Positions 3,029 through 40,265 of a DNA stretch of 46,171 nucleotides are shown piece after piece (position 1 is the first letter of the stretch; the number at the start of each line of letters is the position of its first letter). A program made the position numbers and the translations under genes. The stretch spans positions 1-46,171 of the forward strand of contig JAGAKH010000079.1 of assembly GCA_017625725.1 (NCBI GenBank), in the 5' to 3' direction. The notes under the pieces were generated by a model. The model saw only the letters and a program-made list of their open reading frames with translations. It ran no database searches and was not told where the DNA came from. The DNA is from Bacteroidales bacterium. Its GTDB lineage: Bacteria; Bacteroidota; Bacteroidia; Bacteroidales; UBA932.

Positions 3029-3055
3029 TGTCAAAATAACCACATAGTTTTGACA
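3029..3055. promoter_or_regulatory. Perfect inverted repeat upstream of the GH43 gene (candidate operator)
   Basis: TGTCAAAA (3029-3036) and TTTTGACA (3048-3055) form a perfect 8-bp inverted repeat with an 11-bp spacer, in the 88-bp gap before the GH43 start. There is no U tract after it, so it looks more like a protein-binding palindrome than a terminator. The binding protein is unknown. Confidence 0.35.
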
Positions 3056-3064
3056 CTTATTGAT

Positions 3065-19000: not shown

Positions 19001-19269
19001 ACATCTGGCTCATGGATGCATCTTATCTGAGACTCAAGAATGTCGAGCTTTCATATACCATTCCTCAGGGAAGACTCCTCAAGAGGTTGGGTATCAGTTC
19101 ACTCAGATGCTATATCAGCGGATATAACCTTCTGACATTGTTCTCGGAACTTGCCGATATCGACATCGATCCTGAAGGATCAACAGGTAGTGCCGACCTT
19201 AATGGTGATTACGTATACAGCTATCCGAATGTGCGTATCTATAACGCCGGATTCAATATATCATTCTAG
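16015..19269 (+). CDS. SusC/RagA-family TonB-dependent outer-membrane transporter (pair 1)
   Basis: This is a TonB-dependent importer of oligosaccharides in the outer membrane, working with the SusD lid encoded next. A signal peptide ends near VNAVPVES. A carboxypeptidase-regulatory-like domain follows (about 43-115; TGEPLIGASVILKG, then STDLDGNF). Next come a TonB-box-like stretch (VVAYGKQKKTSITGA) and a plug domain with the family hallmarks LVDGVERSF and VLKDAASTAVFGVRGANG. The beta barrel fills the rest and ends in an aromatic residue (NAGFNISF), as outer-membrane assembly requires. At 1084 residues the length is normal. No Shine-Dalgarno sequence precedes the ATG. The susD1 start lies just after its stop, so the two are surely co-transcribed. 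It is distinctly different from the second SusC in this locus, suggesting that different products are imported. Confidence 0.95.
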   Translation: MNNTARILIAVAMLACPFLPVNAVPVESDVEMQAQQDQVPYSGVVKDAKTGEPLIGASVILKGSTKYGASTDLDGNFTIYLPKDVKPELEVSFISYQTQVIVPVQSSGIVVALSDDQNFLDAVQVVAYGKQKKTSITGAITSIGSEDLLKSPSGSAANSLAGALTGVSTIQASGQPGAEDPDIYVRGSGSLTNEASKPLILVDGVERSFFQMDPNEIDNITVLKDAASTAVFGVRGANGVILVTTKRGEEGKAKISLSSAFGLTQPLRHLTACDSYEHAKIFSEAQLSDRWNDPSTSLTFSDAVIDMFRRNADPIMFPNTNWDEYLFNDLSWQTQHNITVSGGADRVRYFVSLGYLYQDGMLKSFENYNSNYTYNRYNYRANVDVDLTNTTQLKINIGGRVGKRHEPNGYGSNIWQYITWCTPYSSPGFVDGHYTTPNLGPYIPIGGGMSGLDLYYGYGYSENTANTMNLDIALEQNLDFITKGLSLNLKGAYNSVYNLYVSRSPTAAFSRWQSVNYKGYYTQPGMTMDNPMFDNTHVFITSGEESLDEPMTYASGTSKGRDWYLEGSLNYHREFGNHEVSALLLYNQSKTYYPAQFVEIPTAYVGYVGRITYNYKRKYLADINVGYNGSENFAPGHRYGLFPAGSVGWVISEEPWMQGTKSWLDFFKIRASYGLVGNDKYSGARFLYLNGSWDPSHSVAQFDKWGSWQFGAMYSSNMLVDAIENAAGNPIVSWEKCLKQNYGLDIVLFKQQLSINLDYFREHRYDILSKRNTLPSIADINLPMLNLGIVDNYGYELAATWRSKISEDFNYYITGNYSFSRNKIIYMDEVVPNEPYMAQTGRRTGMTYGYLFDRYLTEDDFDPETRELLTIEKGGTVPSITLGNPRPGDAIFKDLNSDGKIDGDDNTWFGSGQRPESVAGLIAGFTWKNFGFSMQWTGAWGASRVLGSDYKSPFRDNNDGSLLKFLADGRWTPDNPESRFPRVTFMNKSWYTQSSDIWLMDASYLRLKNVELSYTIPQGRLLKRLGISSLRCYISGYNLLTLFSELADIDIDPEGSTGSADLNGDYVYSYPNVRIYNAGFNISF

Positions 19270-19281
19270 GAGGATATGTGT

Positions 19282-21315: not shown

Positions 21316-21339
21316 CAATTAATTCAGAAAGAAAAGGTT

Positions 21340-24324: not shown

Positions 24325-24342
24325 AACAGGAGGAACGAAACA

Positions 24343-25995
24343 ATGAATAAATATTTTTCAAGATTTTTCATAACAGCCCTTGCTGCTGTCAGTGTGGCTG
24401 TGTCCTGCAATGACCTGACACTTGATGAATCGGTCTATCATACCAAGAAGTATCTTTTCGGAGACTTCTCTCAGGTGAAGGAGGTCATGACCAATGTGTA
24501 CGGTTATCTTGAGTCAGGTTTCTATGATTTTCAGGAGTGTGCGACAGATGATGCCGTGTATGCAAATACACCGGATGTCGCAAAGATCTACTACGATGGA
24601 AGCTGGTCTGCAAATAACCTTGTAGATGACAAATGGTCTCATTATTATTCAGCAATCAGAGCCGCTAACTTCCTGATGGAAAACTGCCCTGAAGATTATG
24701 AGATTGCCCGTTGGGATGATCGTTATAAGGATTATCTTGCCCAGCTTAAGAATTATCCATGGGAGGCCAAGGCACTCAGAGCATTTTTCCATATGGAGCT
24801 TCTTAAGAGGTATAAGACAATCGTCATTGCCGACAAGACATTCACTGTCGAGGAGGTGAACAATCTTATGCCTTCAACATATGACCAGGCAGTGAACTGG
24901 ATCGAAAAGGAACTTAAGGACGCTGCCGATCATCTGCCTGACACTTATGCTTCTTCGTATTATGCTGAAATCGGACGTGTGACAAAGGGCTTTGCCCTTG
25001 CAGCCCGTGCAAGGCTTCTTCTATACGCAGCCAGTCCATTGAACAATGAGATGGCTGAGAAAGACAGGTATGCCCGTGCTGCAGCGGCGGCTCTTGATTT
25101 CATCGATGCAAATAACACTTCGAAGACATATTTCTTGAGGAAACAGATGTTCAATGTCGAGAATCAGGATCTGATTTTCGGTATTCGTGAAGCTACGGAC
25201 AACACATTTGAATCGCAGAATTTCCCTATAGGTTATGAGGGAGGAAATTCCGGAACATGTCCTACCTTGAACCTTGTAGAGGCCTTTGACATGGCAGACG
25301 GTACTCCTTTCAATTATGAGAAGCACAGCAGTGCCCTTCTGGATCCTTCTCAGAGAGACCCTAGAATGGCTAAGGCTATCATTTCAAACGGTGATATGTT
25401 CAAGGACGAGATAGTCGAGACCTTCATCGGAGGAAGAAACGGCCAGCCTAAGGAGAATGCAAGCCCGACTTCATTCTATCTCCGCAAGTTCGTTCAGGAG
25501 GCTACAAGACTTACTGTAGGAAATGTCTCCGAGATGCTTCACCTTTATCCTATCTTCAGGATCCAGGAGGTCTATCTGAATTATGCAGAGGCATTGTTTG
25601 AAGCTACAGGTTCACCTGACTTCAAGGGCTCTCTGAGTGGAGTGAACTATACAATGTCTCCAAGAGAGGCACTCAATAAGGTCAGGACTGTATATCAGAT
25701 GCCTGAGGTCCCTTCAGGACTTACAGCAGCTGAGTTCCGTACAAGACTCCGCAATGAAAGACGCGTCGAACTCTGCTTCGAGGGTCACAGATTCTGGGAT
25801 ATCCGCAGATGGAAGCTCGGTGACAAGACAAAGGAAATCTACGGATTGAAGATAACCAGGAACCTTGATGAAACTTTCTCAGCAGAGAAGGTGCTTGTGC
25901 AGTCACGTTACTGGAATGACAAGCAGTATTGGTATCCTATTTCAAGTTCAGAAATATTCAAGAACCAGTCGCTCATTCAGAATACCGGCTGGTAG
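24343..25995 (+). CDS. SusD/RagB-family glycan-binding lipoprotein (pair 2)
   Basis: This is the lid partner of SusC2 on the outer surface. The signal peptide ends at the lipobox VAVSC (Cys22) and the mature protein starts NDLTLDESVY. SusD hallmarks are the segment KGFALAARARLLLYAASPLN (about 205-225), FRIQEVYLNYAEALF, and the C-terminal RNERRVELCFEGHRFWDIRRW, with the final NTGW. Its length (550 residues) is ordinary for the family and much shorter than SusD1. AGGAGG at 24328-24333 lies 9 nt before the ATG, one of only two such sites seen in the operon. The specificity is unknown but should complement that of pair 1. Confidence 0.95.
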   Translation: MNKYFSRFFITALAAVSVAVSCNDLTLDESVYHTKKYLFGDFSQVKEVMTNVYGYLESGFYDFQECATDDAVYANTPDVAKIYYDGSWSANNLVDDKWSHYYSAIRAANFLMENCPEDYEIARWDDRYKDYLAQLKNYPWEAKALRAFFHMELLKRYKTIVIADKTFTVEEVNNLMPSTYDQAVNWIEKELKDAADHLPDTYASSYYAEIGRVTKGFALAARARLLLYAASPLNNEMAEKDRYARAAAAALDFIDANNTSKTYFLRKQMFNVENQDLIFGIREATDNTFESQNFPIGYEGGNSGTCPTLNLVEAFDMADGTPFNYEKHSSALLDPSQRDPRMAKAIISNGDMFKDEIVETFIGGRNGQPKENASPTSFYLRKFVQEATRLTVGNVSEMLHLYPIFRIQEVYLNYAEALFEATGSPDFKGSLSGVNYTMSPREALNKVRTVYQMPEVPSGLTAAEFRTRLRNERRVELCFEGHRFWDIRRWKLGDKTKEIYGLKITRNLDETFSAEKVLVQSRYWNDKQYWYPISSSEIFKNQSLIQNTGW

Positions 25996-26027
25996 GAACA
26001 TGTCTGTCAATTCAGACATATCAGACA

Positions 26028-28370
26028 ATGAATAGAATCGTTTTTGCTGCATTATGCAGCCTTGTAATGTTCTTCTCTTCCTGTTCCCATACCGTCAAGT
26101 GGGGCCAGGAAGAAAAGAATGGATATGTTTTGATAACCCAGAGAGGAGGTCCTGATCTGGGTTATTCGTCGGAATCAGGTATCAGTATCCTGACAGTTGA
26201 CGGCTATGCTTTCAAGGATCTGAACCGTAACGGCAGTCTTGATGTATACGAAGACTGGAGAAACAGCTTTGAAGACAGAGCTGCAGACCTCGCTTCACAA
26301 TTAAGTGTTGAAGAAATTGCCGGTCTTATGCTTTACAGCGGACATCAGGCTCTTCCTATGCCAGCATGGTGGGGCAGTTATGGCGGAAAATGGTTTGATG
26401 AAAGCGATGCGGAGCCATGGGATCTTACCGATGAGCAGAAGAAGTTCCTTTCGGAGGACAATCTTCGTCATGTGCTTCTTACCAGATATGACAGCACAGC
26501 GGTGGCGGTAAGATGGAATAACAACATGCAGGCCTTTGTAGAAGGTCTGGCCCATGGTATTCCTTGCAACAACTCATCTGACCCGAGACATAATGGTGCC
26601 GATTCCAATGCAGAATATAATGCGGGAGCCGGTGGAGACATCTCATTATGGCCAACATCCATGGGAATGGCTGCCACCTTCGACCCTGAACTGATGTTCG
26701 AATTCGGACTCATTGCAGCACAGGAGTATAGGGCACTCGGTCTTGCAACAGCACTCTCACCACAGGTGGATCTTGCAACAGAACCCAGATGGAACAGATT
26801 CCACGCAACCATGAGTGAGGACCCTGTCCTTGCAGCTGACATGGCAAGAGCTTATTGTGACGGTTTCCAGACTTCCTATGGAGATGATGTGCTTGAGAAG
26901 GGCGGACTTTTCGGTAAGCCGGCTCAGGGATGGGGACTTCAGAGTGTCAATGCAATGGTGAAGCATTGGCCGGGAGGAGGTCCTTGCGAGGGAGGCCGTG
27001 ATGCACATCTCGGTTTCGGAAAATTCGCCGTATATCCAGGTGAAAACTTCGAGATGCACAAGGTCCCATTCACTGAAGGTGCTTTCAAACTGAAGGAAGG
27101 TACGAAGATGGCTTCGGCTGTCATGCCATATTACACTATCTGTTTTGACCAGACCGGTGAGAATGTTGCGAACGGCTTCAATAGGGAAATCATCACTGAC
27201 ATGCTCAGAGAAGATGCCGGTTATGACGGAGTGGTATGTACGGATTGGGCTATTACCCAGACGTATGAACACACCAGCCTTCATTGGGGTAAGCCATGGG
27301 GAGTGGAGCATCTCAACGAGGCAGAACGCCATTATAAGGTAATCATGGCGGGTTGCGACCAGTTCGGTGGAAACAATGACAAGCTTCCTGTCCTTGAGGC
27401 TTATGAGATGGGTGTCAAGGAACATGGTGAGGAATGGATGAGAAACAGGATGGAGCAGTCAGCCCGCAGACTCCTTCTTAATATTTTCAGAGTAGGCCTG
27501 TTTGAGAATCCTTATCTTGATGAGGATGAGTCAGAATCAATTGTAGGTTGTCCTGCATTCATGGACAAGGGTTATGAAGCCCAGGTCAAGAGTGTCGTGA
27601 TGCTTAAGAACAAGGACGGAATACTTCCTTTGAAGGACTTCTCTGACCTGAAGGTCTTTGTCCCAGAGCAGTATCGACCTGCAATTGTGGATTTCTGGAA
27701 GACCACATATGATGAAGTCCACAATGATCCGATTGAAACGGCTTTGGTAGAAAAGTATTTCGGCAGCAGGGTATCCACTGCTGAGGAAGCTGACATTGCA
27801 ATAGTCTTCATTGATTCTCCGGACGGAGGCTTCGGATACAACAGGGAGGCTTATGACAAGGGAGAATTCCCATATGAACCGATCAGTCTTCAGTATTCTG
27901 ACTATACAGCCGAGTATGCCAGAGAGCATAGCATCGCCGGTGGCGACCCTTATGAAGACTTTACTGACAGAGGATATAAGGGACGTTCCACTACAACCCG
28001 CAATGTTACTGATATGATTGCTGTTCAGGAGGCTAAGAGAATAATGGGCGATAAGCCTGTGATTATCATCGCCACTCTGATCAATCCGTTTGTGATGAGT
28101 GAGATAGAACCGTATGCAGATGCTATATTCCTTACTTTCTATACTCAGAATCAGATCATCATGGAGTTCATGACCGGTAAGGCCGAGCCTTCTGGCTTGC
28201 TTCCGCTTCAGCTCCCTGCCGATATGAGGACTGTGGAAGAGCAGTTTGAAGATGTCCCTCTGGATATGCGTTGCTATGTCGATTCTGAGGGCAATACCTA
28301 TGATTTTGCGTTCGGACTGAACTGGTCCGGCGTTATAGATGATGAACGTGTAAAGAAATATAAGAAATAA
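26028..28370 (+). CDS. GH3-family lipoprotein glycosidase without C-terminal Fn3-like domain
   Basis: This is a retaining exo-glycosidase of family GH3 (beta-glucosidase, beta-xylosidase or related). The start at 26028 is preferred over an in-frame ATG at 25929, which lies inside susD2 and would place a non-signal extension before a clean lipoprotein signal peptide (lipobox FFSSC, Cys19). A short acidic loop (DLNRNGSLDVYEDWR) precedes the GH3 barrel, as in one GH3 subgroup. The barrel shows KHWPGGGPCEGGRDAH and the nucleophile D406 in VVCTDWAIT. The second domain begins near VVMLKNKDGILPL and is followed by an irregular C-terminal part without the Fn3-like module of the other GH3 in this operon. 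At 780 residues the length is ordinary. Substrate cannot be stated. Confidence 0.88.
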   Translation: MNRIVFAALCSLVMFFSSCSHTVKWGQEEKNGYVLITQRGGPDLGYSSESGISILTVDGYAFKDLNRNGSLDVYEDWRNSFEDRAADLASQLSVEEIAGLMLYSGHQALPMPAWWGSYGGKWFDESDAEPWDLTDEQKKFLSEDNLRHVLLTRYDSTAVAVRWNNNMQAFVEGLAHGIPCNNSSDPRHNGADSNAEYNAGAGGDISLWPTSMGMAATFDPELMFEFGLIAAQEYRALGLATALSPQVDLATEPRWNRFHATMSEDPVLAADMARAYCDGFQTSYGDDVLEKGGLFGKPAQGWGLQSVNAMVKHWPGGGPCEGGRDAHLGFGKFAVYPGENFEMHKVPFTEGAFKLKEGTKMASAVMPYYTICFDQTGENVANGFNREIITDMLREDAGYDGVVCTDWAITQTYEHTSLHWGKPWGVEHLNEAERHYKVIMAGCDQFGGNNDKLPVLEAYEMGVKEHGEEWMRNRMEQSARRLLLNIFRVGLFENPYLDEDESESIVGCPAFMDKGYEAQVKSVVMLKNKDGILPLKDFSDLKVFVPEQYRPAIVDFWKTTYDEVHNDPIETALVEKYFGSRVSTAEEADIAIVFIDSPDGGFGYNREAYDKGEFPYEPISLQYSDYTAEYAREHSIAGGDPYEDFTDRGYKGRSTTTRNVTDMIAVQEAKRIMGDKPVIIIATLINPFVMSEIEPYADAIFLTFYTQNQIIMEFMTGKAEPSGLLPLQLPADMRTVEEQFEDVPLDMRCYVDSEGNTYDFAFGLNWSGVIDDERVKKYKK

Positions 28371-28372
28371 AT

Positions 28373-30052
28373 ATGAAGCTTGAGAAACTTTTTGCGATTG
28401 GACTGATTGCTGTCCTTCTGGCATCTTGCTCTGGAAATCCTGTCGTTACATGTTACAGAGTGGATCCTTTAACGAAGGTCTTTCCTGAAAATACTGCATT
28501 CAGAAAAGCACCTGATACCCTGGACGCAGGTGGAAATACCCATGTGGAATTCCAATTTGCATTGCATAGTGGTGCTGCTGTCGAGGATTTTACGGTAGAA
28601 TGTGGTGATCTTATCGGCCCGGATGGTGAAAGGATACCTGCACCCCGCTGTGGAGTTGTCGGTTATGTGGGAGTGGGTGATGTGACCGATAATCCCGCTC
28701 ACGATGTCTTGAGAAGTCATACAGGAATGTATCCGGACCCTATCCTTGAGCAGGATACATATGATTTCGATCCGTTTGTCACTTTCTGCCCATGGATTAC
28801 TGTTTTTGTGCCTGAAGGAACCAAGGCAGGTGTCTATACTGCTGAAGTTACAATGAAAGGCCGTACCTCCGGCAGAAGATTCTCATATAAGGAACCGATC
28901 CACGTAAAAGTGTGGCCGGTTGATATGAGAACCCCTGATTTCAAGAATGTAAACTGGGCGTTTGATTTCGAACATTGCCTCAAGTTATGGAATGCCGGTC
29001 AGCCTGTGGAGAAATTTACTGAGGATCATAAAGAGTACCTCAGACAGCTTTACGGCATGATGGCTGAGTGTTATCAGAATGTTACAATGATTCCTATATG
29101 GAATGTTGTCGAAATGAATAAGATGGAGGATGGAAAGTGGGAGTTCGATTTCACAAGATTTGATGAGTATGTCAGATTGGCTGATGAGGCCGGAGTGCTC
29201 GACTACATTCAGATTGAGGAACTAGGTCATCGCCTGATACCTAACTGGACTGCTCCTATGGGCCTTTTTGTCCCTTACGAGAAAGATGGAAAGATGGAAA
29301 AGGAGAACTACTCTCCGGAGAATCCTTTGGTAAGGGACTTCCTGAGCAGTTTCATACCAGCCCTCAAGGCACATGTTGAGGAATTGGGATGGGGTGACAG
29401 GTGTTATATGAAGATCTGTGATGAGCCGGTGGATGAAAATGCAGAGAGCTATAAGAAGGCTGTTGCCCTTATCCGTGAGTACTGGCCTGATATGAAGGTA
29501 CTTGAAGCTCTTCAGACAACAAAGGTTACCGGTGCTGTAGACGCATGGTGCCCTCAGCTGAATTACTGGCATGAGCACTATGATTTCTATAAGTCAAGAC
29601 AGGAAGCAGGTGATGAGATGTGGTTCTACACATGTTGTTATCCTCGTGAACTCTATCCTAACAGGTTCATCGAACAGCCTCTTCTGAAGGGCAGGATGCT
29701 TTTCTGGATGGCACATAAATACAGAGCAGACGGTTATCTTCATTGGGGATTCAATTATTGGGTAGGTGATCCGTTCGAAGAGACATCGATGCCTGGCACA
29801 GGAACCCTTCTCCCAGGTGGAGACTCGTGGCTGATTTATCCTGGCTACAGGAAAATGCTGCGTTCTATCCGATTTGAACAGTATCGTGATGGAATAGAGG
29901 ACTACACCTTGCTTCAGATGTTGGCTGAAAAGGATCCTGCGGCAGCAGATGCATTTGCCAATACCCTCATTTCCAATTGGTGGGTATATGTTGGTAATAC
30001 AAACTTATACCGCCAGACCAGGAGGGATCTGCTGAAGGCCCTTTCAGAGTAA
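28373..30052 (+). CDS. GH123-like (DUF4091) lipoprotein without Ig domains
   Basis: This is a predicted lipoprotein of family GH123 (beta-N-acetylgalactosaminidase type). The lipobox LLASC ends at Cys19. A beta-sandwich N-terminal domain (about 30-185; THVEFQFALHSGA, then VYTAEVTMKG) leads to a TIM-barrel catalytic region with the adjacent acids D350-E351 in KICDEPVD. GYLHWGFNYWVGDPF and the RDGIEDYTLLQML signature follow near the C-terminus. With 559 residues and no Ig domains it has the simplest architecture of the four in this locus and so looks closest to the classical form. It starts 2 nt after the GH3 stop (translational coupling likely). Family confident; it may cleave a different HexNAc linkage from the others. 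Confidence 0.85.
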   Translation: MKLEKLFAIGLIAVLLASCSGNPVVTCYRVDPLTKVFPENTAFRKAPDTLDAGGNTHVEFQFALHSGAAVEDFTVECGDLIGPDGERIPAPRCGVVGYVGVGDVTDNPAHDVLRSHTGMYPDPILEQDTYDFDPFVTFCPWITVFVPEGTKAGVYTAEVTMKGRTSGRRFSYKEPIHVKVWPVDMRTPDFKNVNWAFDFEHCLKLWNAGQPVEKFTEDHKEYLRQLYGMMAECYQNVTMIPIWNVVEMNKMEDGKWEFDFTRFDEYVRLADEAGVLDYIQIEELGHRLIPNWTAPMGLFVPYEKDGKMEKENYSPENPLVRDFLSSFIPALKAHVEELGWGDRCYMKICDEPVDENAESYKKAVALIREYWPDMKVLEALQTTKVTGAVDAWCPQLNYWHEHYDFYKSRQEAGDEMWFYTCCYPRELYPNRFIEQPLLKGRMLFWMAHKYRADGYLHWGFNYWVGDPFEETSMPGTGTLLPGGDSWLIYPGYRKMLRSIRFEQYRDGIEDYTLLQMLAEKDPAAADAFANTLISNWWVYVGNTNLYRQTRRDLLKALSE

Positions 30053-30077
30053 GATTAAAATTGATAAAGACAAGGAT

Positions 30078-32384
30078 ATGAAATTTTCAAGACAGTTGAC
30101 ACTTGCCGCAGTGGTTGCATTGGCAGCGGTTTCATGTGGCACAGGAAGCGATACTCCTATCTATAAGGATGCTTCACAGCCTGTGGAAAAAAGAGTGGAA
30201 GATCTTCTCTCTAGAATGACATTGGAGGAAAAGGCCGGACAGATGAACCAGTTCGTAGGACTTGAGCATATCAGGGCAAATGAGGCACATCTCACCCCGG
30301 AGGAGCTCAGGACCAATACGGCACAGGCATACTATCCTGGTTTCCCTGCAGATACCATCGAGCAGTGGACCAAAGAGGGCCTCATCGGTTCATTCCTTCA
30401 TGTACTTACCATTGAAGAGGCTAATTATCTTCAGGAACTTGCAATGCAGAGCCGTCTGCAGATACCTATCATGTTCGGTATAGATGCCATACATGGTAAC
30501 TGTAACTGTCCTGATAATACGGCATATCCTACAAGCATAGGTCTTGCATCGTCATTCAACACTGAGCTTGCATATAAGATTGCACGTCAGACCGCAGCCG
30601 AAATGAGGGCAATGAATATGCATTGGACATTCAATCCTAATGTGGAGGTTGCGAGGGATGCACGTTGGGGACGTTGCGGTGAGACCTTCGGAGAGGACCC
30701 ATATCTTGTATCAAGGATGGGAGTAGAGTCGGTGAAGGGCTATCAGGGAGATATGGATTCAGATGACGTCCTTGCCTGTATCAAGCATTTCGTCGGCGGC
30801 AGCCAGCCGATAAACGGAACAAACGGATCTCCTACAGATCTTTCAGAAAGAACGATCAGAGAAGTTTTCTTCCCTTCTTTCAAGGCTGGTGTCGAGGCAG
30901 GAGCCTTGTCATTGATGACAGCTCACAATGAACTTAACGGAATCCCATGCCATTCAAATGAGTGGCTCATGACTGATGTCCTCAGAGGTGAGTGGGATTT
31001 CAAGGGGTTTGTTGTCAGTGACTGGATGGACATAGAGCATATCCACGACCTTCATGCAACAGCCGAGAATGTAAAGGAGGCCATATATCAGTCGATCATG
31101 GCGGGTATGGACCTTCACATGCATGGCGTGTACTGGAACGAAGCCGTATGTGAACTGGTAAGGGAAGGACGTATCCCTGAATCCAGGATAGACGAGTCGG
31201 TAAGAAGAATCCTTGACATCAAGTTCCGTCTCGGACTTTTCGAGCAGCCGTTTGCAGATCCTCAGACCACTATGGATGTACGTCTCTGCAAGGAACATCG
31301 GGAGACAGCTCTTGAGGCTGCCCGTCAGGGAATCGTTCTTTTAAAGAATGACGGAATTCTTCCTTTGGATGCTAAGAAATACAGAAAGGTGCTCGTCACC
31401 GGAATCAATGCTGATGACCATAATATCATGGGAGACTGGACTGCCGCTCAGAAGCCTGAAAACTGCGTGACCATCCTTGAAGGTCTCAGGATGATAGCTC
31501 CGGAAACGGAATTCGTGTTTGTCGATCAGGGCTGGAATCCTCAGGAAATGTCCCAGGCTAAGGTGGATGAGGCTGTAGCCAAGGCAGGAAGGTGTGACCT
31601 CAATATCGTAGTTGCCGGTGAGCATATGTTCAGAGGCAACTGGAGCAAGAAGACATGTGGAGAGGATACAGACCGTTCAGACCTCGATCTTGTCGGCCTT
31701 CAGCAGGAGATGATCGAGAGGATTCATGCAACGGGAGTCCCTACTGTTGTTGTCCTTGTTACCGGACGTCCGTTGAGCGTAGAATGGATTTCAAATAATG
31801 TTCCGGCTCTTATCAATGCATGGGAACCGGGAATGTATGGCGGTCAGGCTGTTGCGGAGATCCTTTATGGAAAGGTCAATCCTTCGGCTAAGCTTTCAAT
31901 GACCATGCCTCGTTCGGTAGGACAGACTCAGATGATCTACAATCATAAGCCATCTCAGTATTTCCACCCTTACGTCGTCAAGCCTAGCACACCTCTTTAT
32001 CCTTTCGGATTCGGTCTCAGCTATACTGAATATGAATATTCCGATCTGTCTCTTTCTTCTGAGGAAATGTCGGCAGACGGATCGCTGAAGGTGTCTGTCA
32101 AGGTTGCAAATACAGGAAAGACAGCAGGAACCGAGATTGTTCAGCTTTATCTGCGTGACAGATTCTCACAGGTGACACGTCCGGTGAAGGAACTCAAGGA
32201 TTTTGCAAGAGTGGAGCTTGCTCCTGGCGAAGAAAAGACAGTCGAGTTTACAATCACTCCTGACAAGCTCATGTTCCTTGACAAGAAGATGAAACCGATT
32301 GTCGAACCGGGCGAATTCATCGTCATGGTAGGTTCATCGTCAGCTGATAAAGATCTGCTAACTGCCTCTTTCTGGGTTAAATGA
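30078..32384 (+). CDS. GH3-family lipoprotein, BglX-like
   Basis: This is a retaining GH3 exo-glycosidase with the full three-domain layout. The lipobox AAVSC ends at Cys20. The barrel domain contains the conserved MTLEEKAGQMNQ start, RDARWGRCGETFGEDPYL, KHFVGG and the nucleophile D315 in VVSDWMDI. The second domain (GIVLLKNDGILPLD onward) and a C-terminal Fn3-like domain (VSVKVANTGKTAGTEIVQLY) complete the 768 residues. This resembles BglX-type beta-glucosidases. The stop codon overlaps the ATG of the next gene by 4 nt, so the two are translated together. A beta-glucosidase or beta-xylosidase activity is most likely, but GH3 specificity cannot be read from sequence. Confidence 0.9.
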   Translation: MKFSRQLTLAAVVALAAVSCGTGSDTPIYKDASQPVEKRVEDLLSRMTLEEKAGQMNQFVGLEHIRANEAHLTPEELRTNTAQAYYPGFPADTIEQWTKEGLIGSFLHVLTIEEANYLQELAMQSRLQIPIMFGIDAIHGNCNCPDNTAYPTSIGLASSFNTELAYKIARQTAAEMRAMNMHWTFNPNVEVARDARWGRCGETFGEDPYLVSRMGVESVKGYQGDMDSDDVLACIKHFVGGSQPINGTNGSPTDLSERTIREVFFPSFKAGVEAGALSLMTAHNELNGIPCHSNEWLMTDVLRGEWDFKGFVVSDWMDIEHIHDLHATAENVKEAIYQSIMAGMDLHMHGVYWNEAVCELVREGRIPESRIDESVRRILDIKFRLGLFEQPFADPQTTMDVRLCKEHRETALEAARQGIVLLKNDGILPLDAKKYRKVLVTGINADDHNIMGDWTAAQKPENCVTILEGLRMIAPETEFVFVDQGWNPQEMSQAKVDEAVAKAGRCDLNIVVAGEHMFRGNWSKKTCGEDTDRSDLDLVGLQQEMIERIHATGVPTVVVLVTGRPLSVEWISNNVPALINAWEPGMYGGQAVAEILYGKVNPSAKLSMTMPRSVGQTQMIYNHKPSQYFHPYVVKPSTPLYPFGFGLSYTEYEYSDLSLSSEEMSADGSLKVSVKVANTGKTAGTEIVQLYLRDRFSQVTRPVKELKDFARVELAPGEEKTVEFTITPDKLMFLDKKMKPIVEPGEFIVMVGSSSADKDLLTASFWVK

Positions 32385-35300
32385 TGATGATGATGGTTAC
32401 AATCAGAAAATATATCTTACTCCTGACTTCTCTGCTGCTGGGAATCTCGCTTTTCGCACAGACCGATGAAGTCAGGACTCAATACGGAAGGCTTACAGGA
32501 CAGGAAAAATTTCCTGTCCTCTCCTATATGGAGCTTGAGCCTCATGATCTTCCTGACGTTGAAGAATGGAAGGGCGTCGAAGGTGTTCAGGTTTCCTGGG
32601 GTGGAATAGACATGAGATATCCTAAGACATCCGTGCCGATGGCATCTGTCAAGGACAAGCTGACTTTGTCCGGATGGGGAGGGGAGAGGGTGTCCGCACA
32701 GGCTGTCGTATGGACCGGGATACCGGTGGAGGAGCTGAATTATGAGGTGACAGATCTGAAAGGACCGCGGAAGAACCTTATTTCATCTGACTTCATCAAG
32801 TCCGGTTATGTGCGATATGTCCTCGGAGACGGGTATTTCAGCAATGGTACAGGTTGCGGAGAGTGGGCAAAGGAACCTTCACGTGACTCCGTCCTTGTGG
32901 CTGACTGCATTGATCATCTGCTTGACACTATGAGTCTTAAGCCGATGCAGACCCAGGGCATCTGGTTTACATGTCAGATACCTTCAGGTGTAGAGCCTGG
33001 AGTTTATACCGGTGATGTGATAGTCAGAAGCGGCGACAAGGTCATCAGAAAACTGAAACTTAGCATACAGGCCCGTGAGGAAGTCCTTCCAGGACCAGAA
33101 GACTGGCACTTCCATCTTGACCTTTGGCAGAATCCTTATGCCGTTGCGAGATATTATCAGGTGGACCCGTGGTCAGACGAACACATGGAGGCCATGAGGC
33201 CTCTTATGACATTGCTGGCACAGGCTGGTCAGAAAGTCATAACAGCGACTCTTATCCACAAGCCATGGGGTGGTCAGACCGAGGATCATTTCGAAAGCAT
33301 GGTTACATGGATCAAAAAGGTTGACGGAACATGGGAGTACAAGTTCGATATTTTTGACAAATGGGTGGAATTCATGATGGATTGCGGAGTGACGGAGCAG
33401 ATCAACTGTTTCTCAATCGCTCCATGGAGCTCCTCTTTCCAGTATTATGACCAGGCTTCCAATTCCTTTAAATTTGTCAAGGCCGATGTCGGATCCCCGG
33501 AATATGAAGCTTTCTGGTCAGGCATGCTGGTGGAATTTGCCAGACATCTCAGGGAAAAAGGCTGGTTTGACATATGTGCTATCGCCATGGATGAACGTCC
33601 TGTGGAGGTAATGCTGGAAGTGATAAAGCTGATCAGAAGTGTGGAGCCGGACTTCAAGATCGCTCTTGCCGGTGGTTATCACCCGGAAATCGAGTCCGAA
33701 ATCTATGACTACTGTCTTGCATATTCTCTTGAATTTCCTGAAGATGTTCTGGAAAGACGACGTAAGGAAGGAAAGATAAGCACGTATTATACATGCTGTA
33801 CTGAGATAGAACCGAATCTGTTCACGATTTCGGATCCTCAGGACGGGCTTTTCCTTGGACTGGATATGGCCAGGAGAAAGTCCGACGGTTATCTCAGGTG
33901 GGCCTATAACAGCTGGCCTCTGGAGCCTTTGATGGATTCAAGATTCCGTGCGTTTACATCAGGTGATACCTTTATGGTTTATCCTGGAGGCAGAAGTTCT
34001 ATAAGAATGGAAAGACTTGTCCATGGTATCCAGGAGTATGAGAAGATACGTATCCTCGGTCAGGCCGGAACTCCCGATGTCAAGATAATTCCGGAACCTG
34101 CGGTAATGCAGGTCGGCAGTGAGGTCGTGAATGTCAGTGGAGCATCCTTTTTTGTCGGAGAGGATGTCGATGAACGCAGCTCTGCAGCGATTTGTGGTTT
34201 CATGTCACACCTTGGCCATGTCAGTGCCTCTTGTTGCAGCAGGACCATGAATGAATCGCAGGCCGTGTTTACATATGACATCAACAGGGATCTGAATGAC
34301 GAGGTCTATTTCATAAAGGTCAAGGGCACCCAGATAAAGGTTGAAGCCTCTTCATTCAATGGTTTCCTCTATGCCATCGAGACATTGAAGCAGCTCCTTC
34401 CGGTTGCGATATATGGTGATGAGGTCGACAGGAAGGCTTCATGGACGATACCTCATGTAATCATAGAGGATTACCCTAGATTCGGCTATCGCGGAATGCA
34501 CATGGATTCAGCAAGGCATTTCTGGTCTGTTGCCCAGGTCAAGAAATACCTTGACATCATGGCTGTCCATAAGATGAACACCTTTCATTGGCATCTTACG
34601 GACGATCAGGGATGGAGGATTGAAATAAAGAAATATCCCAAACTTACAGAAATCGGTTCAAACAGAAGCGGTACGGCTCTTGGCAAGGGCTGGTACGATG
34701 TGGAATATGACGGAATCCCATATGGAGGTTTCTATACCCAGGAAGATATACGTGAAGTTGTGGAATATGCGGCTTCGAAAGGTATAGCTGTCATACCCGA
34801 AATAGATCTGCCCGGTCATATGCTTGCTGCCATAGCATCCTACCCTCATCTTGGATGCACAGGCGGACAGTTCGATGTCTGGGGACGTTGGGGAGTGTCT
34901 CCTGAAGTGCTATGTGCCGGTCGAGAGACCACTTATGAGTTTCTTGAAAATGTCCTCCTTGAAATCATGGAACTCTTTCCTTCAAAATATATACATATAG
35001 GAGGGGATGAGTGCCCTAAGGTGAGGTGGAAGGAATGTCCTGCATGTCAGGCTAAGATGAAGGAACTTGGGCTTGAAGGTGAAAAGGCTGCTGAACTGCT
35101 TCAGGGATATGTCACGAAGAGAATCGAAAACTTTCTTGCCGGCCATGGCCGCAGCATCATCGGTTGGGACGAGATCCTTGCAGGAGATATTTCAAGTACG
35201 GCAACTATAATGTCCTGGAGGGGAGTCGACGGGGGCATTGCTGCAGCTAAGGCTGGCCATGATGCCATCATGACTCCTAACACCCATTGCTATCTGGATT

Positions 35301-36328
35301 ATTATCAGTCACGCAAGATTCAGGATGAACCCTTTGCAATCGGAGGATTTGTGGACGTGGCAAAGGTCTATTCCTTTGAACCTCATACGCCTGAGATGAC
35401 AGAGGAACAGAAGAATCACATACTTGGAGTTCAGGCGAATCTCTGGACAGAGTATATCAAGACCCCTGAGCATCAGGAATATATGCTTCTCCCAAGAATG
35501 ACTGCATTGAGTGAAGTGCAGTGGTCCTATCCGCACAGGAGGGATTATGACAGATTCCTTGACAAGATGAGTCATATGGTGGAAATCTATAAGGTCATGG
35601 GCTTCAATTTCGCAAAGCACATCTTCGAAGTCATTCCTGTCATTGGAGTAAATGAGCAGGCGGGACGTCCGGAAGTGACATTGACCACTCAGGGAGATGC
35701 ACAGATGTATTACACACTTGACGGAAGTCAGCCGACTACATCCTCCTCACTGTATACAGGACCGGTTACGGTCGGTGAAGGTGAAGTGTTCAAGGCGATA
35801 GTGGACAGAAAGGATATGGACACCAAGGTCCTGACCCAGACTTTTTCTGACCATAAGGCTATGGGAAAAACCATAAGGATGAATACGGTGCCGTCGCCAC
35901 TTCACTCTGCAGGCCTCCCCGAGAGTCTTGTCAACGGTGTGCTGAATGAAGATCAGGATGCGGCAGCAGGAGAATGGGTCGCATGGAGGGGCGAGCCTGT
36001 TGAAGTTGTGATAGACATGAACGGTGAGACTTACAGCAGGGTTTCCGTGAGGACATTCGTATCCAAATGGGAGGATATGTACGCACCTCTGGGATTGTGT
36101 GCCTATGTTTCTGAAGATGGAGAGACCTTTACTGAGGTGGCATCAGAGGAATACGGAATTGAAGAAGAAAAGGTTCCGGATGGCATAAAGCTTTATGATC
36201 TGGAGTTCGCTCCGGTATCTTCAAGATATCTCAAGGTAGTGGTAAAGACAGTTCCTGCTCTTCCGGCATGGAGCGAGCGTCCCGGCAAGCCGGCATACCT
36301 CTTCCTTGATGAAATAAAGGTTGAATAA
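32381..36328 (+). CDS. Two-catalytic-domain exo-glycosidase: GH123-like module fused to GH20 hexosaminidase with C-terminal discoidin-like domain
   Basis: At 1315 residues this is the largest protein of the window. A type I signal peptide ends near LFAQ. Residues about 40-555 form a GH123/DUF4091-like module: the adjacent acids D404-E405 in AMDERP are kept, and GYLRWAYNSW and YPGGRSSIRMERL match the other GH123-like proteins, though the C-terminal signature is degenerate. Next come a GH20 N-terminal domain (about 562-680; VKIIPEPAVMQV, then GFLYAIETLKQLLP) and a GH20 barrel (about 695-1045) with WHLTDDQGWRIEIKKYP and the catalytic pair D876-E877 in GGDECPK. A chitobiase-C-like repeat (about 1105-1150; YYTLDGSQPTTSS) and a discoidin-like carbohydrate-binding domain (about 1190-1315) follow. 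Both modules would use substrate-assisted HexNAc cleavage. The start is a run of five ATG codons overlapping the GH3 stop. Confidence 0.88.
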   Translation: MMMMMVTIRKYILLLTSLLLGISLFAQTDEVRTQYGRLTGQEKFPVLSYMELEPHDLPDVEEWKGVEGVQVSWGGIDMRYPKTSVPMASVKDKLTLSGWGGERVSAQAVVWTGIPVEELNYEVTDLKGPRKNLISSDFIKSGYVRYVLGDGYFSNGTGCGEWAKEPSRDSVLVADCIDHLLDTMSLKPMQTQGIWFTCQIPSGVEPGVYTGDVIVRSGDKVIRKLKLSIQAREEVLPGPEDWHFHLDLWQNPYAVARYYQVDPWSDEHMEAMRPLMTLLAQAGQKVITATLIHKPWGGQTEDHFESMVTWIKKVDGTWEYKFDIFDKWVEFMMDCGVTEQINCFSIAPWSSSFQYYDQASNSFKFVKADVGSPEYEAFWSGMLVEFARHLREKGWFDICAIAMDERPVEVMLEVIKLIRSVEPDFKIALAGGYHPEIESEIYDYCLAYSLEFPEDVLERRRKEGKISTYYTCCTEIEPNLFTISDPQDGLFLGLDMARRKSDGYLRWAYNSWPLEPLMDSRFRAFTSGDTFMVYPGGRSSIRMERLVHGIQEYEKIRILGQAGTPDVKIIPEPAVMQVGSEVVNVSGASFFVGEDVDERSSAAICGFMSHLGHVSASCCSRTMNESQAVFTYDINRDLNDEVYFIKVKGTQIKVEASSFNGFLYAIETLKQLLPVAIYGDEVDRKASWTIPHVIIEDYPRFGYRGMHMDSARHFWSVAQVKKYLDIMAVHKMNTFHWHLTDDQGWRIEIKKYPKLTEIGSNRSGTALGKGWYDVEYDGIPYGGFYTQEDIREVVEYAASKGIAVIPEIDLPGHMLAAIASYPHLGCTGGQFDVWGRWGVSPEVLCAGRETTYEFLENVLLEIMELFPSKYIHIGGDECPKVRWKECPACQAKMKELGLEGEKAAELLQGYVTKRIENFLAGHGRSIIGWDEILAGDISSTATIMSWRGVDGGIAAAKAGHDAIMTPNTHCYLDYYQSRKIQDEPFAIGGFVDVAKVYSFEPHTPEMTEEQKNHILGVQANLWTEYIKTPEHQEYMLLPRMTALSEVQWSYPHRRDYDRFLDKMSHMVEIYKVMGFNFAKHIFEVIPVIGVNEQAGRPEVTLTTQGDAQMYYTLDGSQPTTSSSLYTGPVTVGEGEVFKAIVDRKDMDTKVLTQTFSDHKAMGKTIRMNTVPSPLHSAGLPESLVNGVLNEDQDAAAGEWVAWRGEPVEVVIDMNGETYSRVSVRTFVSKWEDMYAPLGLCAYVSEDGETFTEVASEEYGIEEEKVPDGIKLYDLEFAPVSSRYLKVVVKTVPALPAWSERPGKPAYLFLDEIKVE

Positions 36329-36347
36329 TCAATAATAATCGATACTT

Positions 36348-38165
36348 ATGAAGAAATTTTGGCTTTTGGCAACTTTGTCGTTTGCGGCATTTGCTGTTTC
36401 ATGCAACACTGTGGAATGGAAACCTGCAGGTGACCGAATCATGACCCAGTGGGGAGAAAACCTGGATCCAACATCTGTTCATCAGGAATATCCACGTCCT
36501 CAGATGATACGTGAAGATTGGAAGAACCTTAACGGAATGTGGAACTATGCCATAACATCGGCGGATGTTCCGGATGCGGAATGTATTGATGGTCAGATTC
36601 TTGTGCCTTTTGCAGTGGAATCGGCCCTTTCCGGTGTCGGAAGGAAGGTAAACGCAGATGAGGCTCTTTGGTATGAGCGTGAGTTCACACTGCCATGCGG
36701 CTGGAAGGGACAGAGGATTCTTCTTCATTTCGGTGCAGTTGACTGGTATGCTGCAGTCTATGTTGACGGTAAATTTGCCGGAGAACACAAAGGTGGCTAC
36801 ACTCCGTTCTCATTCGATATCACAGACCTGCTTGCCAAAGGTCGCAGGCATACTGTGAAACTGAAGGTAATCGATACCACTGACAAATCATGGCAGCCTC
36901 GCGGAAAGCAGATTTCCGAGCCTTATGGAGTATGGTATACAGCTGTGACAGGTATCTGGCAGACTGTCTGGATGGAGCCTGTTCCGGCAGCACATGTTAA
37001 TTCATATCTGGCTGTTTCAGATATTGATAAGGCTGAACTTAAGGTAAATGTAGAGGCAGTGCTTGAGAGTGGTGATATATGTAAGGTCGTTCTTCTTGAT
37101 GGCGGCAAGGAAGTGGCTTCAGCTGAAGGAACCGAGGTTGTTCTCAGTGTTCCTGATATGAAGCTATGGTCTCCAGATTCTCCGGCTCTGTATGATCTGG
37201 AGATTTCAGTTGTGCGTGATGGCAAGACTATAGATAAGGTCAAGGGATATACGGCCATGAGGAAGGTCGCTTATGCAAAGGATGCTTCCGGTCATAACCG
37301 TATCTATCTCAACAATGAGCCAGTCTTCCAGTTCGGACCTCTCGATCAGGGATGGTGGCCGGACGGACTTTATACGGCACCTTGCGACGAGGCCCTTCTC
37401 TTTGATATCGAAAAGGCAAAGGAAATGGGATTCAATATGATCCGCAAGCATGTGAAGGTCGAGCCAGCCCGCTGGTACTGGCACTGCGACCGTCTTGGAA
37501 TGCTTGTATGGCAGGATATGCCTAATACTTTCGACAATGCCAAGACACAGTGGAATTACCACAACTTTGATGCAGTCACAGAGGATGCCCTCACATGTGA
37601 GGAAGGAAAGGCAAACTTCCGCAGGGAGTGGACTGAAGTCATCAAGGCAAACCGTATATTCCCTTGTATCGTAGTATGGGTGCCTTTCAATGAGGGTTGG
37701 GGACAGTTTGAAACCAAGCAGGTGATTGACCTGACCCGTTCTTTGGATAATACCCGTCTTATCGATTATGCATCAGGCGGAAACTTCTTTACAGACTGTG
37801 GCGGAGACATCCACGATACACATAACTATCCTAACCCTATCATGTATCTGTATGATCCATCAAGGGTGAATGTGCTAGGTGAATATGGCGGAATCGGATG
37901 GCCGATTGAAGGACACCTCTGGCAGACAGACAGCAATTGGGGTTATATCCAGTATAAGAATTCAGATGAAGTGTTCAAGGCGTATGAAACCTATGCACTG
38001 CAGTTGGAAAGCCTTATCGACTATGGTTTTTCAGCGGCTGTATATACTCAGATCACAGACGTAGAGGGAGAGGTCAATGGTCTCATCACTTATGACAGAA
38101 AGGTTGTCAAGATGAATGTAGACAGCCTCCGTCATATTAATACAGTAGTGATTAATGGACTTTAA
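36348..38165 (+). CDS. GH2-family lipoprotein glycosidase
   Basis: This is a retaining exo-glycosidase of family GH2 (beta-galactosidase, beta-glucuronidase, beta-mannosidase or similar). The lipobox FAVSC ends at Cys19. The order of domains is normal: a sugar-binding jelly roll (about 45-195; LVPFAVESALSGVG, WYEREFTLP, GEHKGGYTPFSFD), an Ig-like domain (about 205-295) and a TIM barrel. The barrel has the acid/base E449 in FNEGWGQFE and the nucleophile E512 in LGEYGG. At 605 residues it is a short GH2 lacking extra C-terminal domains. It begins 19 nt after the fusion gene and ends 3 nt before the GH127 gene. The exact sugar is unknown. Confidence 0.9.
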   Translation: MKKFWLLATLSFAAFAVSCNTVEWKPAGDRIMTQWGENLDPTSVHQEYPRPQMIREDWKNLNGMWNYAITSADVPDAECIDGQILVPFAVESALSGVGRKVNADEALWYEREFTLPCGWKGQRILLHFGAVDWYAAVYVDGKFAGEHKGGYTPFSFDITDLLAKGRRHTVKLKVIDTTDKSWQPRGKQISEPYGVWYTAVTGIWQTVWMEPVPAAHVNSYLAVSDIDKAELKVNVEAVLESGDICKVVLLDGGKEVASAEGTEVVLSVPDMKLWSPDSPALYDLEISVVRDGKTIDKVKGYTAMRKVAYAKDASGHNRIYLNNEPVFQFGPLDQGWWPDGLYTAPCDEALLFDIEKAKEMGFNMIRKHVKVEPARWYWHCDRLGMLVWQDMPNTFDNAKTQWNYHNFDAVTEDALTCEEGKANFRREWTEVIKANRIFPCIVVWVPFNEGWGQFETKQVIDLTRSLDNTRLIDYASGGNFFTDCGGDIHDTHNYPNPIMYLYDPSRVNVLGEYGGIGWPIEGHLWQTDSNWGYIQYKNSDEVFKAYETYALQLESLIDYGFSAAVYTQITDVEGEVNGLITYDRKVVKMNVDSLRHINTVVINGL

Positions 38166-38168
38166 TAT

Positions 38169-40265
38169 ATGAAACGTATACTGGTTGTAATAGCATTGGG
38201 TCTTGCGGTGTCTTGCATAAAGGCACCGCAGCCTGTACCGGAATATGTGCCGGCAGCACCATATGGGGTATTTCATGAAGGAATGATAGCGAACATCACT
38301 CCTGAAGGTTGGCTTAAGGAAACGCTTGTGCGTCAGAAGGAAGGCCTTACAGGTCATCCGGAAGCGATGGCATATCCTTATAATTCCTGTCTGTGGGCAG
38401 GAGTACTTGACAGAGACTCGGAGACACGAGGTTCTGACTGGTGGCGTTATGAGCAGACAGCATATTATCTTGACGGTCTGACAAGGGTGGGATATCTTAT
38501 CGATGATCGTGAATTCCTCGATCTGTGGCAGGAAAACATAGAATATGTTCTTGCCAATCCGCTTCCTGCCACTCCAGAGGGTAATCTGCAGGACGAGATT
38601 GACCGTCTGGTCGAGGACTTCAGCAAATGGATAGATTTTGATGCACAGGTGTCGGAAGATCCGAAAGCACGTGCAGTCGTAGAGGATGTAATGGGACAGA
38701 TCAACAGAAGGGCTGCTGTCGCTGTCGAGGCTCGTCCGGAGGGACGTCTCGGAAGCGAGACCGAGTTCGGTGCCTGGCCTTTCGCCGTGTTCTTCAGAGC
38801 CGTTCAGGCTTACTATGAAGCTACCGGCGATCCGCGTATTCCGGAGGCTCTTGAAAAGCACTTCCTTTCATATTCTGCCAAGGCTCTCTCGCTTGACCGT
38901 TTCGTGGTGAATGTAGAAGGACTTCTTTGGACTTATTCCATAACAGGCAATGAGGAACTTCTCCGGAAGGCTGTTGATGCATGGGGAGAGGGAGCATCGA
39001 ATCTTACTCAGGAAACATGTCTGGATGATTCAGAGTTCCGTATGCATGGAGTCACCATGAATGAGCTTATGAAGATTCCTATGATTCTGTATATGTATAC
39101 CGGTGAAGAACAGTACCTCAAGGCTGCACTTCATGCTGATTATAAGATGGAGACACCGAATATGCTTATTGACGGAGTCAATTCAAGTACTGAGGCATTG
39201 GCTGGAAACGATCCTTTGGCCAGCCATGAGACCTGCGATATTTCGGATTACACCTGGACCATCGGTTATTATCTTATGGGAACAGGTGATGCCCAGTGGG
39301 CTGACCGCATAGAGAAAGCCATCTTCAATGCTGGATTCGGAGCCGTTACCAAGGATTTCCGTACCATGCAGTATTTCTCTTGTCCTAACCAGTTCATTGC
39401 TACCGGAGAATCCAATCATAATGATTTCAAGAAAGGTCTGACATGGATGGCATATCGTCCGGTTCATGAAACGGAGTGCTGTATCGGCAATGTACACAGA
39501 TATTTCCCTAACTACGTTGCCAGAATGTGGCTGAAAGATGCTTCCGGACACCCTGTAGCTGCTTTGTACGGTCCTTCAAGCGTGACTTACGATCTCGGTG
39601 AGGGCTTGAACGTGTGTATCGAGGAAAAGACAGAATATCCTTTTGAAGAGAAGATCGACTTTGAGTTTACCTTCTATAAGGATGGACGCAGATCGGATGC
39701 ATCTCACCACATGAACTTCACATACAGGATTCCTCTCTGGTGCAAGACTTCTCAGGAGTGCGGCTTCCACACCGTATCGAAGGAGTGGAAGAGTGGTGAG
39801 ACATTCTCTGTCCAGCTTCCAATGGAGGTTGAACTTGTAGAGAATCCGGTTGAGGGATTATGTGTGCAGCGTGGCCCTGTCGTATATTCTTATGCTATTC
39901 CTATGGATTGTGTAGAGGATACGGTCGTGTATGATTATCTTGCGGGCAAGGTATCAGCCAATCCGGATTTCAAGTGCTGGAACATGACTCCTTCCGGAAA
40001 ATGGAATTATGCATTGGTGGAAGACAGGCTTGATGAAGTGAAGGTGGAGTTTACCGGTTCAACCGGCTATCCATTCGATCTGGAGAATGCTCCGGTCAAG
40101 ATATCTGTTCCGGTTGTAGGTGTCAAGGACTGGATTCTGGATGAGGACCGTTACACGCCTGCATTGCCTGACGAAGTGGTTGCAGAGTCTGATGAGGTTA
40201 CCTTCATCGATCTTGTTCCTTATGGAAGTACGACTCTTAGGCTTACTACGTTCCCGGTATATTGA
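38169..40265 (+). CDS. GH127-family (DUF1680) lipoprotein, beta-L-arabinofuranosidase-like
   Basis: The family comprises retaining enzymes that use a zinc-bound cysteine as nucleophile, the best known acting on beta-L-arabinofuranosides. The lipobox LAVSC ends at Cys16. An (alpha/alpha)6 barrel (about 35-460) contains HETCDISDY and HETECCIGN; E354, C356, C437 and C438 reproduce the Glu-x-Cys plus Cys-Cys zinc site known from the Bifidobacterium enzyme. E342 is a possible acid/base by position. Two beta domains fill the C-terminus. The zinc site argues for real catalysis. Other DUF1680 members act on unusual acidic pentoses of rhamnogalacturonan II, so the sugar may not be arabinose. This is the last gene of the operon, followed by a palindromic repeat. 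Confidence 0.87.
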   Translation: MKRILVVIALGLAVSCIKAPQPVPEYVPAAPYGVFHEGMIANITPEGWLKETLVRQKEGLTGHPEAMAYPYNSCLWAGVLDRDSETRGSDWWRYEQTAYYLDGLTRVGYLIDDREFLDLWQENIEYVLANPLPATPEGNLQDEIDRLVEDFSKWIDFDAQVSEDPKARAVVEDVMGQINRRAAVAVEARPEGRLGSETEFGAWPFAVFFRAVQAYYEATGDPRIPEALEKHFLSYSAKALSLDRFVVNVEGLLWTYSITGNEELLRKAVDAWGEGASNLTQETCLDDSEFRMHGVTMNELMKIPMILYMYTGEEQYLKAALHADYKMETPNMLIDGVNSSTEALAGNDPLASHETCDISDYTWTIGYYLMGTGDAQWADRIEKAIFNAGFGAVTKDFRTMQYFSCPNQFIATGESNHNDFKKGLTWMAYRPVHETECCIGNVHRYFPNYVARMWLKDASGHPVAALYGPSSVTYDLGEGLNVCIEEKTEYPFEEKIDFEFTFYKDGRRSDASHHMNFTYRIPLWCKTSQECGFHTVSKEWKSGETFSVQLPMEVELVENPVEGLCVQRGPVVYSYAIPMDCVEDTVVYDYLAGKVSANPDFKCWNMTPSGKWNYALVEDRLDEVKVEFTGSTGYPFDLENAPVKISVPVVGVKDWILDEDRYTPALPDEVVAESDEVTFIDLVPYGSTTLRLTTFPVY

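Follow-up and report, generated by a model that had tools for sequence, protein, structure and literature searches.

Does a single gene of a Bacteroidales bacterium encode two working exo-glycosidases of different families, and would these act on the same glycan? The question arises from one open reading frame in the window, that is, the whole 46,171-nucleotide stretch of DNA analysed here. Families GH123 and GH20 both employ the acetamido group of the substrate and an Asp-Glu pair, and the original prediction placed one module of each family in a single polypeptide. The gene and its surroundings are given below; relatives A and B are two genomes of the same genus.

16015..25995, plus strand: two SusC/SusD pairs of the locus (profile matches)
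25929..32384, plus strand: block X, consisting of GH3, a second GH123-family gene and GH3, conserved in both relatives on the upstream side of GH123 (Pfam, comparison)
32381..36328, plus strand: GH123-GH20 fusion gene, 1315 aa, ATG start (open reading frame list, Pfam, solved-structure matches)
32381..32464, plus strand: signal peptide-like N-terminus, approximately residues 1-28, resembling type I and without lipobox cysteine (translation inspected by eye)
32597..33028, plus strand: GH123 N-terminal domain, residues 73-216, 5.3e-35 (PF22680)
33125..34057, plus strand: GH123 catalytic domain, residues 249-559, 3.1e-109 (PF13320; BvGH123 fold)
33590..33595, plus strand: GH123 catalytic pair D404-E405 (alignment with the BvGH123 Asp-Glu pair)
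34055..34078, plus strand: fusion junction, where GH123 similarity ends and 4 to 7 linker residues lead into GH20 (alignment to the separate genes of the two relatives)
34079..34474, plus strand: GH20b domain, residues 567-698, 3.6e-11 (PF02838)
34481..35527, plus strand: GH20 catalytic domain, residues 701-1049, 4.8e-119 (PF00728; BT0459, 6q63)
35006..35011, plus strand: GH20 catalytic pair D876-E877 within HIGGDE (sequence, alignment)
35675..35845, plus strand: chitobiase C-terminal / Fn3-associated domain, residues 1097-1155 (PF13287, PF13290)
35912..36250, plus strand: possible F5/8 type C domain, residues 1178-1290, a weak match of 25.2 bits against a curated cut-off of 28.2 (PF00754)
36348..40265, plus strand: block Z, with GH2 and GH127-like genes, conserved in both relatives on the downstream side of GH20 (Pfam, comparison)

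The 1315-residue frame was present as predicted, with D404-E405 and D876-E877 at the residues assigned to them; it contains no internal stop, which ruled out a broken reading frame. Both family models matched far above their curated cut-offs, PF13320 with 365.7 bits (cut-off 23.1) over model positions 1-324 of 324 and PF00728 with 398.2 bits (cut-off 22.3) over positions 1-346 of 348. The Pfam E-values ruled out a chance match for either module, and no NCBIfam profile matched the fused protein above its cut-off. Family searches, alignments and a confident model of the GH123 half together upheld the description of one polypeptide with two catalytic modules, a signal-like N-terminus and intact acidic pairs.

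The best solved relative of the GH123 half is the stand-alone enzyme BvGH123 from Phocaeicola vulgatus (PDB 5l7r/5l7u/5l7v), which matched residues 62-560 with about 608-610 bits and is 51% identical over 517 columns; a GH123 match had been forecast for residues 40-555, and the one recovered scored 610 bits. The adjacent Asp-Glu pair of GH123 serves as stabiliser and acid/base, according to the available part of the source (PMC11087588). D404-E405 align with this pair in BvGH123 and with residues reading N-Q in chain 5fqg of CpGH123. Folded alone, the GH123 half gave a pLDDT of 90.5, with a TM score of 0.94 and an rmsd of 1.3 Å to 5l7r, and the model placed D404-E405 where a barrel strand ends, in line with the role first proposed for them.

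The original prediction also regarded this half as degenerate towards its C-terminus and perhaps a mere binder of glycans, in which case a catalytically dead GH123 domain would serve the GH20 enzyme as a glycan-binding module. Two features speak for such a loss. The tail of about 45 aa that BvGH123 carries past the aligned part is absent, and one of the extra ligand residues listed as specific to BvGH123 in the accessible portion of PMC11087588 (W206, W253, Q256, W306 and W482) has changed: four of the five are identical in the fused protein, while the ligand-positioning W482 is replaced by F525, a Phe that 4 of the 30 sequences in the alignment have at that position, counting the fused protein. 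The tail and the Trp are, however, equally missing in the stand-alone orthologues of A and B, so that neither loss follows from fusion. The fused protein retains all 81 positions at which the other 29 sequences in the alignment do not vary (leave-one-out), and the catalytic pair as well, which ruled out a degenerate domain; the PF13320 match runs to the last model position, at odds with the supposed C-terminal decay, and the predicted fold is that of BvGH123. A binding-only role was thus disfavoured, and we consider it very unlikely. Residues 350-351, just after the W306 equivalent, are also unlike those of BvGH123, and A and B show comparable changes; in view of this and of W482 to F525, the substrate may differ.

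The GH20 half most closely resembles BT0459 of Bacteroides thetaiotaomicron (PDB 6q63), its best solved relative, at about 718-720 bits over fused residues 638 to 1314; that enzyme is stand-alone, without a GH123 module, and takes antennary GlcNAc off N-glycans (PMC10154615). All 86 family-invariant residues are kept (leave-one-out columns), and HIGGDE at residues 872-877 fits HxGGDE, given as the GH20 motif in the part of PMC7426924 available. Since only the GH123 half was folded separately, the GH20 active-site pocket is a prediction from sequence. The model of the fused protein (residues 29-1160) was built from a 19-row alignment, a larger mixed alignment having aligned the GH20 rows mostly to the GH123 module. 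Its best structural match was 6q63, and pLDDT fell below 50 at E877 and just after it (877-879, model residues 849-851). Its mean pLDDT was 72.3 and its pTM 0.52, values too low for reading off the relative orientation of the two active sites.

Comparison with relatives A and B pointed to the origin of the gene. Both contain the same polysaccharide-utilisation locus with GH123 and GH20 as separate genes, about 70% identical to the fused modules and separated by 23 kb. The window carries a rearranged version of the locus, in which GH123 adjoins GH20 in frame; the GH123 stop, the GH20 start and the GH20 signal peptide are lost at the join. The fusion point coincides exactly with the boundary between two conserved blocks, one having GH123 as its last gene and the other GH20 as its first. 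The intervening block may have departed from the window lineage or arrived in that of A and B. Residues changed solely in the fused copy number 38 of 496 in GH123 (against 43 and 58 in A and B) and 53 of 733 in GH20 (against 72 and 70), and are no commoner than changes private to A or B.

The fusion is known from one metagenome assembly, 79.7% complete by tool estimate and in 129 contigs, and occurs in one genome only among those searched. Given also the rearranged locus, two metagenome pieces could have been misjoined in assembly or binning. Against this artefact stands the join itself, in frame, at domain borders and without the inner signal peptide. Elsewhere in the assembly its DNA has no second match longer than 19 bases (other matches span 14 to 19), and repeats within 31.0-38.5 kb are short, 16-19 bases, with none at the join, so that a repeat-driven misjoin was rejected. 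Neither G+C content nor GC skew shifts markedly from one side of the join to the other. An artefact therefore seems very improbable.

We favour, at a probability of roughly 0.72, a real bifunctional exo-glycosidase with both sites predicted to be active. Two genes of one polysaccharide-utilisation locus would have been joined into a single gene, with a putative GH123 beta-N-acetylgalactosaminidase as its N-terminal half and a putative BT0459-type GH20 beta-N-acetylglucosaminidase as its C-terminal half. The GH123 signal peptide would direct export, probably to the periplasm, without a lipid anchor. As both modules are well conserved, and separate in two relatives, this gut Bacteroidales bacterium probably uses the fused protein to clip GalNAc and GlcNAc off glycans. 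GH123 might remove a terminal beta-GalNAc, and GH20 then the beta-GlcNAc beneath or beside it.

Such action in sequence on one glycan has, in our judgement, a little under an even chance. The alternative, nearly as credible, leaves the bifunctional enzyme in place and denies only the sequence: the two modules would be active side by side on ends unrelated to one another, and their fusion would be a near-neutral by-product of locus rearrangement without catalytic gain. Consistent with this, fusions recur in the genus (GH13-GH127-like; GH31-GH43 in relative B; GH123-GH97 in L130, 5816-9592), and two relatives retain the locus with unfused genes. The clean loss of the inner GH20 signal peptide, with both halves still constrained, weighs against it and suggests that the fused form is in use, a gain itself being unproved thereby. 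The companion enzymes of the locus (GH3, GH2, GH127-like, GH28-like and GH43) give no clear sign of a HexNAc-rich substrate. Sequential action aimed at LacdiNAc (GalNAc-beta-1,4-GlcNAc) ends is a doubtful proposition. It is less probable still that a two-step HexNAc enzyme, its sites handing product over to clear LacdiNAc-like ends, was born at the scar of an import/sensing gene swap.

The pairing looks new and its component modules ordinary. The original prediction knew of no characterised GH123-GH20 enzyme, and none was described in the literature searched, as far as the accessible parts of those texts go. Among the strong matches (E-values no higher than 1e-225 or 1e-230, two candidates scored per genome) in overlapping genus, family and order genome samples drawn from larger groups, and with a contig scan of the best 80 of 511 relatives, no further GH123-GH20 fusion appeared; a distant one could have been missed by searches confined to strong matches. 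Other complete exo-glycosidase modules accompany GH123 in the GH123-GH97 protein and in a GH89-GH123 protein of the same order (L136, 6590-10492, minus strand), where GH123 is C-terminal; neither partner is GH20. The Streptococcus pneumoniae protein bearing SpGH20A and SpGH20B is known as StrH. It likewise unites two beta-HexNAc exo-enzymes in a single polypeptide (PMC10154615), but both are GH20. SiaBb3 of Bifidobacterium bifidum also combines GH123 with a second exo-glycosidase in one chain, and its modules were shown to work one after the other on the Sda antigen; that partner is a sialidase (GH33) rather than GH20, the protein is cell-wall anchored and its GH123 lies nearer to CpNga123 (36%) and NgaP (33%), all as reported in the available text of PMC12856340.

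The gene brings two exo-HexNAc families together in what looks like a new combination, and their split state is still visible in relatives about 70% identical, which makes any gain from fusion directly testable. It indicates that locus rearrangement can give rise to a two-enzyme protein. Characterised GH123 enzymes are few, with three known before a 2020 study (PMC7531118), and a GH20 partner in the same chain and locus offers a substrate clue.

Co-location of the two families is not general, occurring in 2 of 26 GH123 loci; neighbouring GH20 and GH123 genes are also found on two haloarchaeal plasmids. As to which gene order is ancestral, the GH127-like relatives recognised in eight contigs sit in other loci. 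None of five contigs bearing GH123 relatives at 53-57% has the GH3-GH123-GH3 block, though some of them (G053, G029, L004) have GH2 genes near GH123.

The open reading frame at 32381-36328 (+ strand) of the window encodes, without interruption, a protein of 1315 amino acids. Pfam models for GH123 and GH20 both match it, bearing out the two-family assignment of the original prediction, and the acidic pairs D404-E405 and D876-E877 lie at the positions proposed there. An NCBIfam search of the protein gave no match above the cut-offs. As far as sequence can show, the fused GH123-GH20 protein is real and well placed in known families.

Domains of the fused protein (Pfam)
residues 73-216, GH123 N-terminal domain
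residues 249-559, GH123 catalytic domain (324/324 model positions, 3.1e-109)
residues 567-698, GH20b
residues 701-1049, GH20 catalytic domain (4.8e-119)
residues 1097-1155, chitobiase/Fn3-type domain
residues 1178-1290, F5/8C match, under the cut-off

The GH123 half, put at residues 40-555 in the original prediction, has BvGH123 of Phocaeicola vulgatus (PDB 5l7r) as its top solved relative, at 608 bits with the whole query and 610 bits with the half alone (match at residues 62-560). D404-E405 align with the pair of BvGH123, whose aspartate we take to be residue 361 and used to anchor the numbering, and with the CpGH123 pair, which is N-Q in chain 5fqg. Among 30 aligned sequences, picked as relatives of the window, this half keeps all 81 columns invariant in the other 29 and differs at 5 of the 138 columns with 90% conservation. 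PMC11087588 names five additional ligand residues in BvGH123: W206, W253, Q256 and W306 are identical in the fused protein (W249, W296, Q299, W349), and W482 is replaced by F525. Phenylalanine occupies the latter position in 4 of the 30 sequences, including the fused protein and both of its unfused orthologues. The predicted fold of the GH123 half alone (mean pLDDT 90.5, pTM 0.92) has BvGH123 as its closest structure (TM 0.94, rmsd 1.3 A, 51% identity). D404 ends the strand of model residues 371-376 (protein numbering minus 28), with E405 adjoining.

The top solved relative of the GH20 half is 6q63 (718-720 bits), identified by fold search as BT0459 of Bacteroides thetaiotaomicron. In an alignment of 24 GH20 sequences, the half keeps 86/86 of the columns that do not vary among the other 23, and differs at 6/155 of those conserved at 90%. 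Since it was modelled only as part of the fusion, with pLDDT below 50 at residues 877-879 (the catalytic Glu and the two positions after it), it is on these alignments that the GH20 half is judged probably intact.

A genome-contig search placed the two closest relatives of the GH20 half in two genomes of the same genus, A (JAFQFD010000026.1, isolate RGIG1763, goat cecum; G419/G435) and B (SUYY01000015.1, isolate SIG162; G434/G479), where GH20 is a stand-alone gene. Whole-genome searches showed that both encode the GH123 half separately on the same contig, about 23 kb away. Gene-by-gene comparison gave the following order in A and B:

Block X: GH3, GH123-family, GH3, GH123
Block Y: a gene resembling the further GH123-family genes found in the window; enzymes; two SusC/SusD pairs; genes for a GH28-like protein, a regulator and a protein of 774-788 amino acids
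Block Z: GH20, GH2, GH127-like

The window carries its SusC/SusD pairs and regulator upstream; block X there directly meets Z, and this join is the fusion. GH123 lacks its stop codon, GH20 lacks its start and its signal peptide, and 4 to 7 residues at the join align with neither A nor B. By eye, lipoprotein-type signals begin both separate GH20 genes and the GH123 gene of A, and type I-like signals begin GH123 of B as well as the fused protein. Because the fusion is present in a single metagenome assembly only, we retain a slight chance that it is a misassembly. This is very improbable, however, as the join falls at domain borders and keeps the reading frame, neither G+C content nor GC skew changes markedly there, and the DNA around it (33990-34140) is fully matched in the assembly by itself alone, other listed matches being of 14 to 19 bases.

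Amino acid identities between the window and relatives A and B
GH123: window-A 73.4%, window-B 70.4%, A-B 68.3% (gene-by-gene comparison: 71% to A, 68% to B)
GH20: window-A 71.7%, window-B 72.2%, A-B 68.1% (gene-by-gene comparison: 69% to A, 71% to B)
SusC1: window-A 57.5%, window-B 57.4%, A-B 85.7%
SusD2: window-A 52.1%, window-B 50.5%, A-B 76.8%

Blocks X and Z are common to all three at similar distance but Y is not, so the import and sensing block of the window is divergent. At 4075-25995 this block looks to have been replaced and the enzyme blocks kept; Y may have departed from one lineage or entered the other. Six window genes within this interval (two Sus genes, the regulator, the GH28-like gene and those at 7056 and 14161) are 29.5-57.5% identical to A or B; the A-B values are 46.7-85.7%. 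Changes exclusive to the fused copy (38/496 in GH123, 53/733 in GH20) are not commoner than those exclusive to A or B (43 and 58; 72 and 70), so neither half shows a sign of decay since the join.

Two haloarchaeal plasmids, NZ_CP084092.1 and CP095396.1 (the two opened of 331 records), carry a GH20 gene followed by a GH123 gene, unfused and on the same strand (stretches L173 7653-11391 and L174 2644-6395). Of 26 GH123 loci scanned over up to 10 kb per side, less in several, two (L051, L064) carry GH20 matches scoring over 500 bits, encoded on the opposite strand; L063 has a weak match of 86 bits. A link between GH123 and GH20 therefore exists without being general.

No other GH123-GH20 fusion was found in 99 further loci. 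At strict limits (E up to 1e-225 or 1e-230, two candidates scored per genome), none was listed in 397 family, 399 genus and 392 order genomes, sets that overlap; none of the 331 plasmid records had a single place covering 80% of the query. In a phylum sample (395 genomes, PF13320, E up to 1e-40), 16 matches were listed from genomes other than that of the window, and one of them, a GH89-GH123 fusion, lay in a frame above 1000 amino acids. Joining of GH123 to another exo-enzyme is recurrent; within the samples searched, the GH20 partner is found in the window only. A GH89 (NAGLU)-GH123 protein of 1301 amino acids (L136 6590-10492, minus strand) belongs to another family of the order, and a GH123-GH97 protein of 1259 (L130 5816-9592) to another genome of the window's genus. 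The interest of the fused protein lies in its pairing and traceable origin; the literature searched, to which most subscription papers, supplements and CAZy did not belong, yielded no description of a GH123-GH20 protein.

Uhgb_GH123, 53% identical to BvGH123, prefers pNP-beta-GalNAc 213-fold over pNP-beta-GlcNAc and cleaves asialo-GM2 and Gb4 glycans (PMC7531118), BT0459 removes antennary GlcNAc of N-glycans (PMC10154615), and SiaBb3 combines a GH123 module with a second exo-enzyme in one chain, acting sequentially on one glycan (PMC12856340). By analogy with these three, the fused protein would be a bifunctional beta-GalNAcase/beta-GlcNAcase. One might guess at a substrate in which the two sugars follow one another, LacdiNAc for example; titles and opening lines of abstracts on LacdiNAc, hexosaminidases and Bacteroides disclosed no paper on such GalNAc-GlcNAc cleavage. 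The remaining locus enzymes (GH3, GH2, GH127-like, GH28-like, GH43) do not narrow down the glycan. The window holds three more GH123-family genes (685-2976, 11577-13889 and 28373-30052), two with bacterial Ig-like (Big_2) domains.

Other fusions were seen as well. Relative B encodes a GH31-GH43 protein of 1157 amino acids (L127 6050-9523); GH43 is a separate gene in the window (3050-4042) and in A. Genes for GH13 (cyclomaltodextrinase-like) and GH127-like enzymes are separate neighbours in genome G547. In G510 and G003, both scanned over their whole length, they are fused, as they apparently are in G500 (first 968 amino acids scanned); the places are L150 15677-19656, L152 from 17097, L154 9288-13202 (minus strand) and L164 14032-17955. 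GH127-like matches lay in frames of at least 1299 amino acids in 11 of 46 cases.
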